Positions 16,904 through 31,029 of a DNA stretch of 64,000 bases are shown here, in pieces; position 1 is the first letter of the stretch, and the number at the start of each line of letters is the position of its first letter. Below the pieces are notes generated by a model, which worked only from the letters and a program-made list of their open reading frames with translations, was not told the DNA's origin and made no database searches. The DNA is from Halopiger xanaduensis SH-6. GTDB lineage: Archaea; Halobacteriota; Halobacteria; Halobacteriales; Natrialbaceae. A program made the position numbers and the translations under genes. Where the stretch lies: NCBI RefSeq assembly GCF_000217715.1, contig NC_015666.1:2988270-3052269 (forward strand), read 5' to 3'.

Positions 16904-19384
16904 TCAGGCTTCGGCCTGCCAGTTGCGAATCCGGTCGGCGCTGACGCCGTCGACGTCCTCCGCGACGGCGTCCGGATCGGCCTCGGTCAGGTCGTCGATA
17001 CTCTCGATGCCCGCGTCGGCGAGCTTCTCGACCGTTTTCGCACCGAGGCCATCGAGCGCCTCGAGATCCGATCCCGAGTCGCTCTCGCGGGCCTGGAACT
17101 CCTGATAGTTGCAGATCGGACAGCCCAGTTCCCACGGCTCGTCGCCGCTGTGAACGACGAGTTCGGGCAGGTCGTGTTCGTCGCAGCGCTCGTCGGTGAC
17201 TTCGATCTCGCCGCGCCGCGGCAGGGGCAGCGAGTACTCGCAGTCGGGGTAGCGGGTGCAGCCGACCAGCCGCGAGCCGCTCTGGAGGGTCTTGACCGCG
17301 AGGTCGCCGTCGTGCTCCTCGCCGCAGTCCGGACACTCGCCCAGCACGGGCCCTTCGCCGGCGTCTTCGGCCTTACAGAGCGGGCAGCCGTGGACGAACG
17401 TCTGCCGGCCGGCGAGCATCTTGACCTCGTTCAGGCCGTGCTCCTCGCACTCGCTTTCCAGAATGAGCGGCTTACCCGTCGAGGGCAGCGGCAGCGTGTT
17501 CTCGCAGTCGGGGTAGCCGTCGCAGCCGATGAAGTAGGAGCCGTGGCGGCTGTTGCGCACGAGCAGGTCTTCGCCGCACTCGGGGCAGGGACCCAGCCGC
17601 TTGTCGTCCTTGAGCGACTTTCGGAGGTGGTCGCCGATCTCCTCGCGCGACTCGGCGAGGTTCGCGAAGATCTCCTCGAGCATCTCCCGGGACTCGTCGG
17701 TGACGTCCTCGAGCCCTGCTTCGCCGGAGGCGATGGCGTCCATGTCGGCCTCGAGTTGGGCCGTCATCTCCTCGCTGACGACGCGGTCGGCGTAGTTCTC
17801 GGCCGCGTCGACGACGGCCATCGCGAGCTTCGTTGGTCGCGGCGGATCGCTCTCGATGTAGCCCCGATCGTACAGTTTCTCGAGGGTGTTGTGACGGGTC
17901 GACTTCGTCCCGATGCCCATGTCCTCCATGGTCTCGATGAGCCGCGACTGGCCGTACCGGCGGGGCGGCTGGGTCTGCTTCTCCTCGAGTTCGACGTCGG
18001 AGAGCGCGAGTTCCTCGCCTTCCTCGACGTCGGGGACGTAGTTCTCCGCGGTGGAGAAGTACGGGTAGACGTCGTGGTAGCCGGGCTCGACGAGGCGCTT
18101 GCCGTTTGCCTTCAGGCGGTAGTCCTCGACCTCGCTGACGACCTTGAGGTGCTCCCAGACCGCGGCCTCGGCGACGGTCGCGTAGAAACGCCGGACGACG
18201 AGTTCGAAGATCTCCCACTCGTCGTCGCTCACGTCGCCCCGGGCGGGGATCTCGCCGGTCGGGTGGATCGGCGGGTGGTCGGTCGTCTCCTCGTCACCTT
18301 CCGTCGGCTGGATTTCGTCGGCCTCGAGCAGGTCTTCGGCGGACTCGCCCAGCGTCGGATGGCCGACGAAGTCGTCGAGCAGTTCCTCGGGATCGAGGTC
18401 GTCGGGGTAGACGGTGTTGTCCGTCCGCGGGTACGTGATGTATCCGGCCGTGTAGAGGTCCTCGGCGATCGACATCGCCCGCTGGGCGGAGTAGCCCAGG
18501 GCGCCGGCCGCGCGGATGAACTGGGTGGTGTTGAACGGGGTCGGCGGCGCATCGGTGCGCGTTCGGCGGTTGACGTCGACCACGGTGGCCGAATCGCGCT
18601 GCGAGAGGGTGTCGTAAACCTCCTCGGCGGCGGCCTCCTCCCAGACGCGCTCGGCCTCGTTGTCGTCCTCGTCGCGGTAGAAGTACTGGGACTCGAAGGT
18701 GGTGTCGTCCTTCGCGAGATCCGCGAACAGTTCCCAGTAGTCCTCGGGATCGAACGCCTGAATCTCGCGCTCGCGGTCGACGATCAGCTTCAGCGTCGGC
18801 GACTGGACCCGCCCGACGGAGATGAAGTCGTTGCCCAGTTGGCCCGCAGACAGCGAGAGGAAGCGGGTCAGCGCGGCGCCCCAGACGAGGTCGATGATCT
18901 GGCGGGCCTCGCCGGCGGCCGCGAGGTCGAAGTCCAGATCGTCGGGGTTCTCGAAGGCTTCTTGCACCTCGTTTTCGGTGATCGAGGAGAACCGCACCCG
19001 ACGGATCGGGACGTCCTCGTTGACGTCGCGGACGATCTCGTAGGCCTCCTTGCCGATGAGTTCGCCCTCGCGGTCGTAGTCGGTCGCGATCGTCACGCTG
19101 GTCGCCTTGCGGGCGAAGATGCGCAGGGTCGCGACGATGTTCTCCTTCGTCGCCGTCTTCTCGACGTCGGCGTCGATGAGTTCGGCGGGCTCGACGTCGC
19201 GCCAGTCGGAGTACTCGTCGGGGAAGTCGACGCCGACGACGTGGCCCGACAGCCCGACGCAGCGCTTGCCGCCCCACTCGTAGACGTTGACGCCGTTCTC
19301 GCGGCTCGAGTCGTACGTGCCGCCGGAGAGGATGTCGGCGATCCGTCGCGCGGCGTTGTCCTTCTCGGTGATGATCAGTTCCAC
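16904..19384 (-). CDS. topA: DNA topoisomerase I (type IA)
   Basis: An 826-aa type IA topoisomerase starting at GTG. The TOPRIM domain has TEKDNAARRI near the start and the acidic triad DYDREGE at about 102-108. The active-site tyrosine is Y318 in TYPRTD. After the cleavage domain come several C4 zinc ribbons (CPECGED...CDGYPDC, CPLC, CPDCGEE...CTRYPDC, CPIC) and a final helix-hairpin-helix ending RNWQAEA. It relaxes negatively supercoiled DNA. Archaeal TopA proteins of this size with multiple C-terminal zinc ribbons are normal. The gene stands alone. Confidence 0.96.
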   Translation of the reverse strand: MELIITEKDNAARRIADILSGGTYDSSRENGVNVYEWGGKRCVGLSGHVVGVDFPDEYSDWRDVEPAELIDADVEKTATKENIVATLRIFARKATSVTIATDYDREGELIGKEAYEIVRDVNEDVPIRRVRFSSITENEVQEAFENPDDLDFDLAAAGEARQIIDLVWGAALTRFLSLSAGQLGNDFISVGRVQSPTLKLIVDREREIQAFDPEDYWELFADLAKDDTTFESQYFYRDEDDNEAERVWEEAAAEEVYDTLSQRDSATVVDVNRRTRTDAPPTPFNTTQFIRAAGALGYSAQRAMSIAEDLYTAGYITYPRTDNTVYPDDLDPEELLDDFVGHPTLGESAEDLLEADEIQPTEGDEETTDHPPIHPTGEIPARGDVSDDEWEIFELVVRRFYATVAEAAVWEHLKVVSEVEDYRLKANGKRLVEPGYHDVYPYFSTAENYVPDVEEGEELALSDVELEEKQTQPPRRYGQSRLIETMEDMGIGTKSTRHNTLEKLYDRGYIESDPPRPTKLAMAVVDAAENYADRVVSEEMTAQLEADMDAIASGEAGLEDVTDESREMLEEIFANLAESREEIGDHLRKSLKDDKRLGPCPECGEDLLVRNSRHGSYFIGCDGYPDCENTLPLPSTGKPLILESECEEHGLNEVKMLAGRQTFVHGCPLCKAEDAGEGPVLGECPDCGEEHDGDLAVKTLQSGSRLVGCTRYPDCEYSLPLPRRGEIEVTDERCDEHDLPELVVHSGDEPWELGCPICNYQEFQARESDSGSDLEALDGLGAKTVEKLADAGIESIDDLTEADPDAVAEDVDGVSADRIRNWQAEA

Positions 19385-26973: not shown

Positions 26974-27234
26974 ATGGCCGACAAAGGAAGCGTTGGTAGC
27001 GCGGGCCGCTTCGGCGCACGCTACGGTCGCGTCGCACGACGCCGCGTCAGCGAGATCGAAGACGACATGGAGAACGCGCAGGTCGACGGCGACGACGTGA
27101 CCCGCATTGGAACCGGCATCTGGAAGAACGAAGAAACCGGCGAGGTCTTCACCGGCGGCGCCTACCGTCCGGAGACCCCCGCCGGCCGCACCGTCACGCG
27201 CTCGATCCGCGCCGCGCTCGCCGAGGACGAATAA
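26974..27234 (+). CDS. rpl37Ae: 50S ribosomal protein L37Ae (zinc-less variant)
   Basis: The protein is 86 aa from ATG 26974. The N-terminus [20 protein letters not shown], and GTGIW, FTGGAY and RSIRAAL in the C-terminal half, are diagnostic of L37Ae (eL43). The family normally carries a zinc ribbon of four cysteines in the middle. Here no cysteine remains anywhere: the CxxC positions read AQVDGD and NEET. The start of the transcript is probably just before the ATG. The gene is followed by rpoP with 27 nt between them. Confidence 0.95.
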
Positions 27235-27261: not shown

Positions 27262-27396
27262 ATGAGCTACAAGTGCTCCCGATGTAAACGCGACGTCCAG
27301 CTCGACGAATACGGCGGCGTCCGCTGTCCCTACTGCGGTCACCGCGTCCTGCTGAAAGAGCGCAGTCGCGACGTCAAGGAAGTCGACGTCCAGTAA
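27262..27396 (+). CDS. rpoP: DNA-directed RNA polymerase subunit P (RpoP)
   Basis: A 44-aa protein, homologous to eukaryotic Rpb12. One zinc ribbon uses C5, C8, C22 and C25 (KCSRCKR...[10 protein letters not shown]). The C-terminal LLKERS tail is typical. RpoP stabilises the Rpo3/Rpo10 platform of archaeal RNA polymerase. It sits between rpl37Ae and pcc1, which is the classic archaeal order. It is short but unmistakable. Confidence 0.97.
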
Positions 27397-27415
27397 CGTC
27401 GTCTCGTCTCCGCCC

Positions 27416-27670
27416 GTGTCTTCTCACGACGCAACGCTCGAGTTCGACTACGAGAGCGCCGCTCGCGCTCGCACCGTCGCCGAGAGCGTCGCCCGCGAAA
27501 TCGGCGAGATCGACGACGACCGGTCGCAGACGACGCTCGAGCGCGACGGCGCGACGGTGCAGATTGCGATCGACGCCGCCGACGTCGTCGCCCTGCGAGC
27601 CGCGTTGAACACCTGGTTTTCGCTGGTCGACGTGGCCGAACGGACGGCGGCGATCGGCGAGGCGGCGTAG
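27416..27670 (+). CDS. pcc1: KEOPS complex subunit Pcc1
   Basis: An 84-aa protein starting at GTG. It has the beta-alpha-beta fold of Pcc1: LEFDYESAARARTVAESVA at the N-terminus and ALRAALNTWFSLVDVAERT in the C-terminal helix. KEOPS makes the t6A modification at tRNA position 37. The gene follows rpoP by 19 nt. Its 3' end (27587-27670) is repeated at 29141-29227 beyond the beta-lactamase-like gene, so the copy here is the intact one. Confidence 0.93.
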   Translation: MSSHDATLEFDYESAARARTVAESVAREIGEIDDDRSQTTLERDGATVQIAIDAADVVALRAALNTWFSLVDVAERTAAIGEAA

Positions 27671-27671
27671 G

Positions 27672-29036
27672 CTACCGGTCCGTCAGGACGGCGGTCCACT
27701 TGCCCATCGAAAGGATCAGCTGCGGCTCCGTCTCGCGGTCGCGAAACTCCGCGGTCCACCGCACCCCGCTTCCCGTACCCGCCGAAAACGAGTACGGCGA
27801 GCGCTCGACGGCGTCCGGGGAGGCGGTGAACGCGACGTCTCGCTCCGGGACGCGGATTCTGATCGTTCCGGCGGCCGCCGGTTCGACGGTTGCGGTCAAC
27901 GCGCCGCGATACGATTCGTAGGTGCCGGCGACGGCGTCGATCGCCTCGCGCACTCGGAGCGCCCGGACGGCGTCCTCGGGCCGCTCGCCGCACAGCGCAG
28001 CCAGAATCCCCGCGCCGACCGCCGTCACCGACGGACCGTGCGTGTTGAACGCCAGTGCGACAGCGACATCGTGCTCCCGAAGACATCCCATGTAGGCCCC
28101 GGAAACGCCGATGCCGCCGAGGTGAGAGACGAGCGTCTCGTCCAGGAAATCGCGGACTTCCCAGCCGTACCCGTACCCGCGGTACGTCCCGTCGACGGTC
28201 GGCAGGGACGGCGATTGACGACCGCACATCGCCTCGACGAGGTCCGGCTCGAGAATCCGCGTCCCGTCGACCGTCCCGTCGTTCAGTACGCAGCGAAGCA
28301 CCGTCGCGAGTTCCCGCGCGGGGCTGATCAGCCCGCCGGCCGGCCCGGCGCCGCCGTCGTACGCGTCCGGCGAGAGCTCGCCGTCCGCCCTCGTGTAGCC
28401 GGTCATCGCGTCGTCGGCTCGAGCGAGCGCGTCGGGATCGTACGTCGATCGGGTCATGCCCAGCGGCTCGAAGATCTCGGTCCGCACGTACTCCTCGTAC
28501 GGTCGCCCGTCGACGGCTTCGACGAGTTCGCCGAGGACGAAGTACCCGCCGTTGTAGTACATGTACCGATCGTCGTCGACCAATCGTCGATCCGCCGCGC
28601 CGTCGACGTGTTCGAACAGGTCGAGGTTCCGCCCGTCGTCGATGGCCGGGCGGCGCGCGACGAAGTCCTGCGGCATCCCCGACGAGTGGGCCAACAACTC
28701 CCGAACAGTGATCGGCGGTCCCGGAGCCTCGTTCAGGACGGCGACGTACTCGCGGAGCTCGTCCTCGAGGTCGATATCGCCGCGTTCGACCAGTTGCAGG
28801 ACGGCGATCGCGGTGACGGACTTCGTCAGCGACGCGACCGCGTACAGGGTATCGGGGGTTGCGGGAGCTTCCGATTCGACGTCTCGAACGCCGAAGCCGT
28901 TCGCGTAGCGGATCCCGTCCCGATCCGCGACGACGACGCTGGCGCCCGGAATCGATTCGGACTCCATCCACTCCTCGACGAGCGCCTCGATCTCGGTGCG
29001 AGTCGACGCCGAAACTGCGTTCTGATCCGGTGCCAT
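27672..29036 (-). CDS. Serine hydrolase of the class C beta-lactamase family
   Basis: A 454-aa penicillin-binding-protein-like enzyme. The nucleophile motif SxxK is S69-L-T-K72 in VASLTKSVTAIA. The YxN motif is Y160-Y-N162 (YMYYNGGYFVLGE). The third motif is HLGG in VSHLGGIGVSG, near residue 330. There is no signal peptide, so it is likely cytoplasmic. A C-terminal domain with ESYRGALTATVEP may be a lipocalin-like part found in such esterases. It ends 1 nt after the pcc1 stop, on the opposite strand, and its 5' flank holds a second copy of the pcc1 end. This suggests insertion. The substrate is unknown. Confidence 0.9.
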   Translation of the reverse strand: MAPDQNAVSASTRTEIEALVEEWMESESIPGASVVVADRDGIRYANGFGVRDVESEAPATPDTLYAVASLTKSVTAIAVLQLVERGDIDLEDELREYVAVLNEAPGPPITVRELLAHSSGMPQDFVARRPAIDDGRNLDLFEHVDGAADRRLVDDDRYMYYNGGYFVLGELVEAVDGRPYEEYVRTEIFEPLGMTRSTYDPDALARADDAMTGYTRADGELSPDAYDGGAGPAGGLISPARELATVLRCVLNDGTVDGTRILEPDLVEAMCGRQSPSLPTVDGTYRGYGYGWEVRDFLDETLVSHLGGIGVSGAYMGCLREHDVAVALAFNTHGPSVTAVGAGILAALCGERPEDAVRALRVREAIDAVAGTYESYRGALTATVEPAAAGTIRIRVPERDVAFTASPDAVERSPYSFSAGTGSGVRWTAEFRDRETEPQLILSMGKWTAVLTDR

Positions 29037-29140
29037 GCGACCACTTACACACTCGTCATCGAAACATCACTTCTTCGCGCAATATTCGCAGCACGCCGAA
29101 CGGGCGGATCAGCGGTTTGAATCGAGATCGACACTGCAAC

Positions 29141-29227
29141 GTCGCCCTGCGAGCCGCGTTGAACACCTGGCTTTCGCTGGTCGACGTCGCGGAGCGGACG
29201 GCGGCGATCGGCGAGGCGGCGACGTAG
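29141..29227 (+). pseudogene. Degraded duplicate of the 3' end of pcc1
   Basis: This segment encodes ALRAALNTWLSLVDVAERTA then IGEAAT and a stop. It matches pcc1 at 27587-27670 almost base for base, with several silent changes and one extra codon. Weaker similarity (ATCGAGATCGAC) runs on to about 29121 in another frame. No start codon or promoter is present, so it is a remnant. Confidence 0.85.
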
Positions 29228-29269
29228 TTAGTCGCCTACAACTATCTTGTTGGCGTCTAATCCGGACAC

Positions 29270-29677
29270 ATGGACACGATTCGCTCGTGGTCGTACTCTC
29301 GCCCGGACAGTGCGGACGTGTGGGACTGGGAGTCCGGCGATTTCGAGGCGAGCGACTGGCCGCTTCCGGAAACGGGTGCAGACGTCACGTACGAGGACGG
29401 CGGCTACCGAGTGCTGGTTCGCGGCGTGATCCACACCCCGCCCCACGCCGAAGCACTCCCACGACGAGTAGCTGCCGACGAGGACGGTCTGCATCTCGAA
29501 CTCGAGGAAGTACGCGAAGACGTGGACGGTCTCATCCCGGATGTCGAGGTTCACAGACCGTACGAAGTCGTCGTCGAGTTCGACGATCGAACGGAGGAGG
29601 CGGATCTTCCGCGGCAAACCGTCGTCGAGTACTATCGTAACGAGACGCCCTTCTTCCGGACGGCCGCCGAGCGCTGA
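29270..29677 (+). CDS. Hypothetical protein, 135 aa
   Basis: Starts at ATG with MDTIRSWSYSRPDSADVWDW and ends TPFFRTAAER. The protein is soluble and acidic, with beta-rich stretches such as GGYRVLVRGVIH and EVVVEFDD. No domain is recognised. The gene begins 42 nt after the pcc1 remnant and may belong to the same inserted segment. It is convergent with the small membrane-protein gene that follows. Confidence 0.65.
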   Translation: MDTIRSWSYSRPDSADVWDWESGDFEASDWPLPETGADVTYEDGGYRVLVRGVIHTPPHAEALPRRVAADEDGLHLELEEVREDVDGLIPDVEVHRPYEVVVEFDDRTEEADLPRQTVVEYYRNETPFFRTAAER

Positions 29678-29682
29678 TTGAG

Positions 29683-29850
29683 TCAGCCGACCGATCCCAG
29701 CGACGATTGCAGGCCCCGATCCGTCCGTCCCGCCTCGAGTTCGTCGGTGTACTGTCGCTGGTTGGCGTGGTAGACGCCGATGCCGAAGGCGGCGACGACG
29801 CCGAAGAGGACGCCGTTGAGCGCGAGCACGTACGGTTTCGGCTCCGACAT
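29683..29850 (-). CDS. Small membrane protein, 55 aa, with a DUF2797-like C-terminal tail
   Basis: Reads MSEPKPYVLALNGVLFGVVA and continues with one transmembrane segment (about residues 7-27). The C-terminus TDRGLQSSLGSVG is almost identical to the tail of the DUF2797 protein at 30268-31029 (TDRSLQSSLGSFS). The DNA is also similar over about 57 nt. It lies 9 nt after the three-TM gene upstream on the same strand, so the two form an operon. The function is unknown. Confidence 0.8.
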   Translation of the reverse strand: MSEPKPYVLALNGVLFGVVAAFGIGVYHANQRQYTDELEAGRTDRGLQSSLGSVG

Positions 29851-29859
29851 TACCCGCAG

Positions 29860-30165
29860 TTAGATCAGGACGACCCACAGGAACAGCGCCGCGATCGCCC
29901 CGCCGACCAGCAGGTACCACTTCGCGACCGTCACGACGTAGTCGGTCTCCCAGTTCAGGCGGACGAGCCACGCGCCCGCGAGGACGAGGCCGAACGCGAG
30001 CACGAGCAGCGCACTGTTCTCGAGGAGCGTCCACGTCAGCTCCCACGAGAGGTTCCGACGGTCGTCCCAGATGTCGTACAGGGGGACGAGCAAGAGTATC
30101 GCGCCGAGTCCGGAGACGCACCCGCTGGCGAGGTATCGACGGACGCGGTCGCTGCCGAGCGACAC
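29860..30165 (-). CDS. Three-TM membrane protein, hypothetical
   Basis: A 101-aa protein. Hydrophobic helices are visible at about residues 12-28 (LASGCVSGLGAILLLVPLY), 46-66 (LLENSALLVLAFGLVLAGAW) and 80-100 (VAKWYLLVGGAIAALFLWVV). The alternating topology resembles the membrane part of haloarchaeal sensor proteins, but no signalling domain is attached. It is transcribed ahead of the 55-aa membrane protein. Confidence 0.75.
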   Translation of the reverse strand: MSLGSDRVRRYLASGCVSGLGAILLLVPLYDIWDDRRNLSWELTWTLLENSALLVLAFGLVLAGAWLVRLNWETDYVVTVAKWYLLVGGAIAALFLWVVLI

Positions 30166-30267: not shown

Positions 30268-31029
30268 CTAACTGAACGATCCCAGCGACGACTGCAGGCT
30301 TCGATCGGTCGCTCCCTCCTCGAGCTCGTAGCCGACCAGATCGCGCATGTCGACGGCGTAGGTCGTCCCGCCGTTCTCGAGGACGAGCAGCCGACCCTTC
30401 ACGCCGACGACCGTCCCGGACGCGATCGTCTCGCGAACGGGTCGGCCCCGGAGTTCGAGCCCGTAGTCGAACGAAAAGCGGTCGATGACGTCGGTCTTGA
30501 GGGACTCGAGCGTTCGTTCCCAGGCCGCTTGATCGACGGTCGCCGCGAGCGAGGCGATCTTCGGCCCGGTGCGGACGCGGTCCGTCAGCCGCCGGGCGAT
30601 CTCGGCCTCGATTTCGCGGGCGATGCGGCCGTTCGAGACGGTGTGGACGTGGGCCGCGCGGTCGGCCCCCTGCTCGCGGAGGCGGGTCTCGAGGCGCCGC
30701 GATTTGGTGACGCCGACCTTGAACGTGTCCGGGGCGAACGCGGCGATGTAGACCGCGTGCTCCTCGTAGCAGTCCATTTCGTCCTTGAGGCAGGTGCCGG
30801 TACAGCGGGCGCAGACCCACGTGCTGGTGTGATATTCGCAGTACGGCGCCGCCGGGCGGTCGCAGGCGACGTGCTCGCCGTCGTCGATCGTGCCGGCGCA
30901 GCGTCGCTCTCCGAGCGCGTACGAGAGGGCGTCGCCGGACTCGAGTTCGCGGCGTTCGATCGCGCCGCTCTCGTCGGCCAGCAACAGTGCGGACCCGCGA
31001 CCGCTCGGCTCGTAACCCACCAGTTGCAC
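30268..31029 (-). CDS. DUF2797 family protein: zinc cluster, GIY-YIG-like stretch, C-terminal PIP-box-like tail
   Basis: A 253-aa protein. A cysteine-rich part holds C44, C56, C64, C73, C76, C80 and C87 (WVCARCTGTC in the middle) and should bind zinc. VYIAAFAPDTFKVGVTKSRR (from residue 93) then looks like the start of a GIY-YIG fold, with arginines near 111-116 and glutamates near 139-143. The last ten residues SLQSSLGSFS fit a PCNA-binding motif, Q246-x-x-L249-x-x-F252. The FEN1 of this window ends the same way (QTGLDRWT). DUF2797 has no established function. A DNA-repair or replication-linked role is my inference. Confidence 0.85.
   Translation of the reverse strand: MQLVGYEPSGRGSALLLADESGAIERRELESGDALSYALGERRCAGTIDDGEHVACDRPAAPYCEYHTSTWVCARCTGTCLKDEMDCYEEHAVYIAAFAPDTFKVGVTKSRRLETRLREQGADRAAHVHTVSNGRIAREIEAEIARRLTDRVRTGPKIASLAATVDQAAWERTLESLKTDVIDRFSFDYGLELRGRPVRETIASGTVVGVKGRLLVLENGGTTYAVDMRDLVGYELEEGATDRSLQSSLGSFS

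Follow-up and report, generated by a model that had tools for sequence, protein, structure and literature searches.

A segment of about 641 nt downstream of pcc1, the gene of a KEOPS subunit, in Halopiger xanaduensis SH-6 consists in order of a second pcc1 3' end, a small gene termed orf135 and a facing DUF2797 3' end. Its content and orientation match those expected of an excised pcc1-DUF2797 interval holding orf135, and from its sequence it looks like an alternative occupant of that same interval, set inside the resident one. The window analysed here is a stretch of 64,000 nt (NC_015666.1, positions 2,988,270 to 3,052,269) on the 3.67-Mb contig of a genome of 4.36 Mb in 4 contigs (G000). Comparisons were made within a family set of 125 genomes, in which G001 is the sole other member of the same genus, g1. 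The features of the locus are collected in Table 1.

Table 1. Features of the pcc1-DUF2797 locus and its upstream genes, in window coordinates.
Feature	Position	Strand	Evidence
L37Ae ribosomal protein gene, first in the conserved upstream group	26974..27234	+	Pfam PF01780, 1.9e-22
RNA polymerase subunit P gene (rpoP)	27262..27396	+	Pfam PF03604, 4.8e-9
pcc1 (KEOPS subunit), intact	27416..27670	+	Pfam PF09341, 1.5e-19; NCBIfam PRK14887
Repeat copy 1, the 3' part of intact pcc1	27586-27667	+	repeat search
S12 / class C beta-lactamase fold serine hydrolase, Pab87-like; resident, common to G001	27672..29036	-	PF00144, 1.1e-69
Segment without G001 counterpart, ~641 nt	29091..29731	.	blastn colinearity with G001 stops at 29090, restarts at 29732
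Second pcc1 3' end: 82 nt (78/82 to resident) + ACG + TAG	29140..29227	+	
orf135, small gene, family unassigned	29270..29677	+	rarity among genomes; no family match
DUF2797 3' end fragment with stop codon	29682..29744	-	similarity to DUF2797 ends; window repeat
Right junction, 13 nt, 12/13 common to G001 kinase and window DUF2797 end	29732..29744	.	
Sensor histidine kinase, truncated to its first ~144 codons; in-frame with DUF2797 end	29735..30165	-	
Resident DUF2797 gene	30268..31029	-	PF10977, 6.6e-23

The intact pcc1 encodes a full-length Pcc1 domain (PF09341 positions 2-74 of 75 in Pfam). A repeat search of the window aligned the 3' part of this gene with 29140-29221 over 82 nt (78/82 alike, 95%), the second copy lying 1,554 nt downstream of the first. 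The same copy was recovered by a genome search at E 4e-31, which rules out a chance repeat. The four differences between the two ends comprise three silent changes and one TTT to CTT replacement (Phe to Leu), and the second end carries an added ACG codon ahead of its TAG at 29225-29227. A first-pass annotation of the window had described the last 84 nt of pcc1 as repeated at 29141-29227 with silent differences and one added codon. The repeat and the ACG codon were borne out, but the alignable extent is 82 nt beginning at 29140, and one of the differences alters the protein. Among the matches listed for the 125 family genomes, two close pcc1-end matches were present in G000 only. Upstream of 29140, a faint and frame-broken likeness to pcc1 continues to about 29097. 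When this extension was anchored and compared with 56 pcc1 sequences, the best score was 17 against a maximum of 16 for a null of 97 random 49-mers from the window, and the mean was 8.1 against a null 95% value of 6.8; without anchoring, the best score of 35 was not clearly above the window null, whose 95% point was 33 and whose highest value was 42. The weaker shifted-frame match reported earlier thus exists, but it barely exceeds chance.

Dispersed repeats that reach 45 nt and exceed 80% identity number just two in the whole window, namely the pcc1 end and a DUF2797 end (29689-29744 against 30274-30329, 84%). The two mark both ends of one segment. The third window repeat above 80% is a local pair, a direct repeat of 46 nt (87%) at 17220-17265 and 17484-17529, 264 nt apart, perhaps reflecting repeated domains of one protein.

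The order of events was read from G001, in which rpl37ae, rpoP and pcc1 are followed by the hydrolase, the sensor kinase and DUF2797. Alignment by blastn to G001 was unbroken over window positions 27331-29090 (94.0%) and restarted at 29732 (89.6%). Between these colinear blocks, G001 holds 1,341 nt, consisting of spacer and most of the kinase, against 641 nt in the window. A search for resident spacer continuing beyond 29090 was negative. The hydrolase of G001 occupies the same place (92% amino acid identity), and both orf135 and the second pcc1 end are absent from that genome, where pcc1 gave one match only. Because G001 has the hydrolase without the repeat, the hydrolase gene is older than the repeat. 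The kinase gives the same polarity. It is full length in G001 (529 codons) and in two relatives from G072 and G076 (74-76% identity), and the truncated form in the window, which keeps about 144 codons, is therefore derived. On these two lines, one sister species and the intactness of the kinase, the arrangement in the window as a whole reads as the derived one.

The kinase remnant and the DUF2797 end form one frame over 29678-30165, save for a single nonsense codon at 29860-29862, and constitute an accidental gene fusion. Divergence of the remnant was 0.11 at first, 0.028 at second and 0.124 at third codon positions. On balance, these values suggest that the kinase was constrained during a large part of the period after the split from G001, and given the low divergence at second relative to third positions, the event is probably younger than that split. 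The high first-position value speaks against simple constraint.

Across the family, the site downstream of pcc1 is variable. At each of 17 loci inspected in other genera, pcc1 has prefoldin beta and DUF3194 no more than a few kb downstream of it, often with one or two variable genes intervening. At loci L053-L070, L143 and L145, these intervening genes vary by genus and include a DUF2243 membrane protein and other ORFs. As read by eye from coordinates, nine of the 125 family genomes (G000, G001, five of genus g14 and two of g20) have pcc1 and DUF2797 placed end to end, and in all nine prefoldin lies elsewhere, 0.8 Mb away in G000. The first-pass annotation had proposed that an insertion separated pcc1 from its usual partners. 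The separation is real, but pcc1 is also split from the prefoldin beta gene (pfdB) and DUF3194 in two other genera that have no hydrolase at the site, so the split is older than all the other events described here. The interval between pcc1 and DUF2797 is empty in G014, G121 and G122 and contains one gene of 208-221 residues in G123, G124, G020 and G132; in G020, a second small ORF was observed after the 221-residue gene, between pcc1 and DUF2797 (locus L136). A broader generalization, which we offer tentatively and consider unlikely, is that in this clade the interval downstream of pcc1 acts as a recombinase-free cargo dock, its whole contents exchanged and stackable, with scars of gene ends recording earlier occupants.

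The cargo of the segment, orf135, is rare, occurring in 2 of the 125 family genomes and 3 of 392 genomes of the order, its own genome counted. No match to it was found in Pfam, NCBIfam, PHROG or PADLOC. An origin from a phage or plasmid was considered and found no support, as searches of phages, plasmids and viral contigs gave no match. The copy in G106 carries an internal stop, and the sequences around it resemble, and may be, transposase remnants. Neither pcc1 nor DUF2797 was found around the relatives of orf135 in G106 and G407. Modelled with AlphaFold from its sequence alone, orf135 gave a poor structure (mean pLDDT 39.4).

The source of the segment was approached by comparing its gene ends with those of the family, using for pcc1 the 96 distinct sequences from the loci examined, a part of the 123 genomes with a match. 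The second pcc1 end is nearest to the resident gene (78/82), followed by G001 (75/82) and G121 (71/82; locus L149), and its 24-nt tail occurs elsewhere among the 96 sequences only in the two g1 genomes. At position 29188, it has the base of the family majority (70/84 sequences), from which both g1 genes differ, and its silent states GTC, GCG and GAG equal those of other genera. The DUF2797 end of the segment agrees at 53/64 positions with the resident gene, 55/62 with G121 and 51/58 with G102. The simplest donor suggested by these comparisons is a relative of the genus other than G000 and G001. None of the genomes searched contained a donor allele of the form pcc1-orf135-DUF2797. The second pcc1 end is itself a mosaic, with 82 nt that are genus-like adjoining a barely recognisable stretch. 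This mosaic may stem from later gene conversion, with the resident pcc1 acting on the 82-nt part, which would blur the identification of a donor.

A local origin, with the resident genes as the source of both gene ends and orf135 acquired separately between them, would account for the second pcc1 end being closer to resident pcc1 than to that of G001. It would also require two independent copying events that happened to yield the right order and orientation, and sits poorly with silent states that match other genera and with a DUF2797 end that is nearer to those of G102 and G121 than to its resident counterpart. We consider local duplication improbable.

The earlier annotation had proposed that the hydrolase was itself the inserted gene, arriving together with a foreign pcc1 end that rebuilt the host gene. 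The hydrolase does lie between the two copies and, at the loci examined from other genera, is absent from the site. Its gene abuts the pcc1 stop as described, whereas its other end falls 103 nt before the second copy and not exactly against it. Joint insertion of hydrolase and repeat is contradicted by the arrangement in G001, a relative that has the hydrolase and a single pcc1 end. The repeat is tied instead to orf135 and the DUF2797 end, on its far side from the hydrolase, and secondary loss of the repeat in G001 would also demand that a full kinase be regained. There is no sign that pcc1 was ever split. We therefore regard this proposal as very improbable; what survives of it is the insertion of a segment carrying a foreign pcc1 end, with no hydrolase aboard. 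A gene standing between two repeat copies is not necessarily the inserted piece, as the sister species shows here.

The hydrolase itself carries the motifs of S12 enzymes, SxxK (S69LTK), YxN (Y160YN) and HxG (H305LG). The Pab87 octamerisation domain (PF13969, Pab87_oct) was matched at 2.4e-6 with 28.2 bits, a narrow pass over the cut-off of 27. The closest solved structure is 2qmi (3.5e-56; alignment over residues 16-439), which we take to be the entry of Pab87 itself. In the Pab87 paper (PMC2651629), where the code 2QMI is mentioned, the CubicO / Pab87 peptidases share the three catalytic motifs of the hydrolase and have motifs of their own, YAEA(F/L), FFYLN and ERY, which are absent from the hydrolase (nearest, YANGF). 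Against the curated class C beta-lactamase model NF033085 the score of 64.2 bits is far under the cut-off of 415. By these motif and profile matches, the enzyme appears to be a Pab87-like S12 peptidase homologue, with beta-lactamase function not evident. Among the 125 family genomes, 22 carry homologues at E 1e-60 or better, of which the nearest from another genus has 55% identity. Separately, of the 20 matching genomes from other genera, eight (G026, G090, G091, G014, G124, G126, G128 and G136) have a distant homologue (37-40%) at 6-25 kb from pcc1, as read by eye.

The breakpoints of the segment differ in how closely they can be placed. The right junction lies within GCCTCGAGTT[C/T]GT, of which 12/13 positions are common to the G001 kinase and the DUF2797 end. 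The left junction was placed only between 29091 and 29140, and no shared sequence or microhomology was shown there. A scan of the genes from pcc1 to DUF2797 found no recombinase within the segment or next to it. Because the right junction falls within 13 nt of near-identity, microhomology-mediated capture is suspected, and the right junction would point to it.

Duplicated 3' ends of genes are a classical sign of integration by integrative elements, and a pcc1 3' end serving as attachment site would explain the duplication as a product of such an element. This explanation is extremely improbable, given that no recombinase was found and the segment holds orf135 only, that its two ends differ (pcc1 on the left and DUF2797, the end of another gene and not a second att half, on the right), and that a close second pcc1 end was found in 1 of the 125 genomes among the matches listed, though others carry different cargo. 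No intact element with a flanking repeat was seen at the same pcc1 position in other genomes.

The reading that we favour, and consider probable overall, is capture of part of an alternative version of the interval. The interval from pcc1 to the convergent DUF2797 gene would be a site of accessory-gene turnover, and in the ancestor of the genus it would have held the Pab87-like hydrolase and the sensor kinase. A piece of about 640 nt from an alternative version of the interval, originating in a relative of the genus, would then have been captured inside the resident interval, replacing 1.3 kb and cutting the kinase to its first quarter. Short microhomologies would most likely have guided the end joining, possibly while a break was being repaired in a polyploid cell that held both versions of the interval. 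The sequence comparisons show the order of events, as far as a single sister species allows, together with the make-up of the segment, the two breakpoint zones and the loss of the kinase; the donor allele, repair of a break as the route and a cell with both versions are inferred.

The locus is a real and well-bounded recombination scar with unusually clear edges, ordinary in kind, and can be set beside known processes. Like the gene-end integration sites of integrative elements, it shows a duplicated gene 3' end, but here no recombinase was found and the second end of the segment derives from another gene. Microhomology-mediated end joining (MMEJ) with microhomologies of 3-5 bp is described in Haloferax volcanii (PMC2700283), where the joining is Ku-independent and takes place in a polyploid haloarchaeon. 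The likeness lies in the short sequence shared at the junction; in that system the products are deletions in a cut plasmid, whereas here a filler segment was captured, with 13 nt (12/13) shared at the right junction and none shown at the left. Homology-facilitated illegitimate recombination, as presented in PMC3240628, likewise brings in a short foreign piece whose ends are not both joined by homology. It depends on homologous recombination at one end, whereas the segment here was not joined at its homologous gene on either side. Beside these systems, the pcc1 locus offers a clean and polarised case of foreign DNA entering an archaeal chromosome with the homologous site unused and no transposase or integrase in sight.
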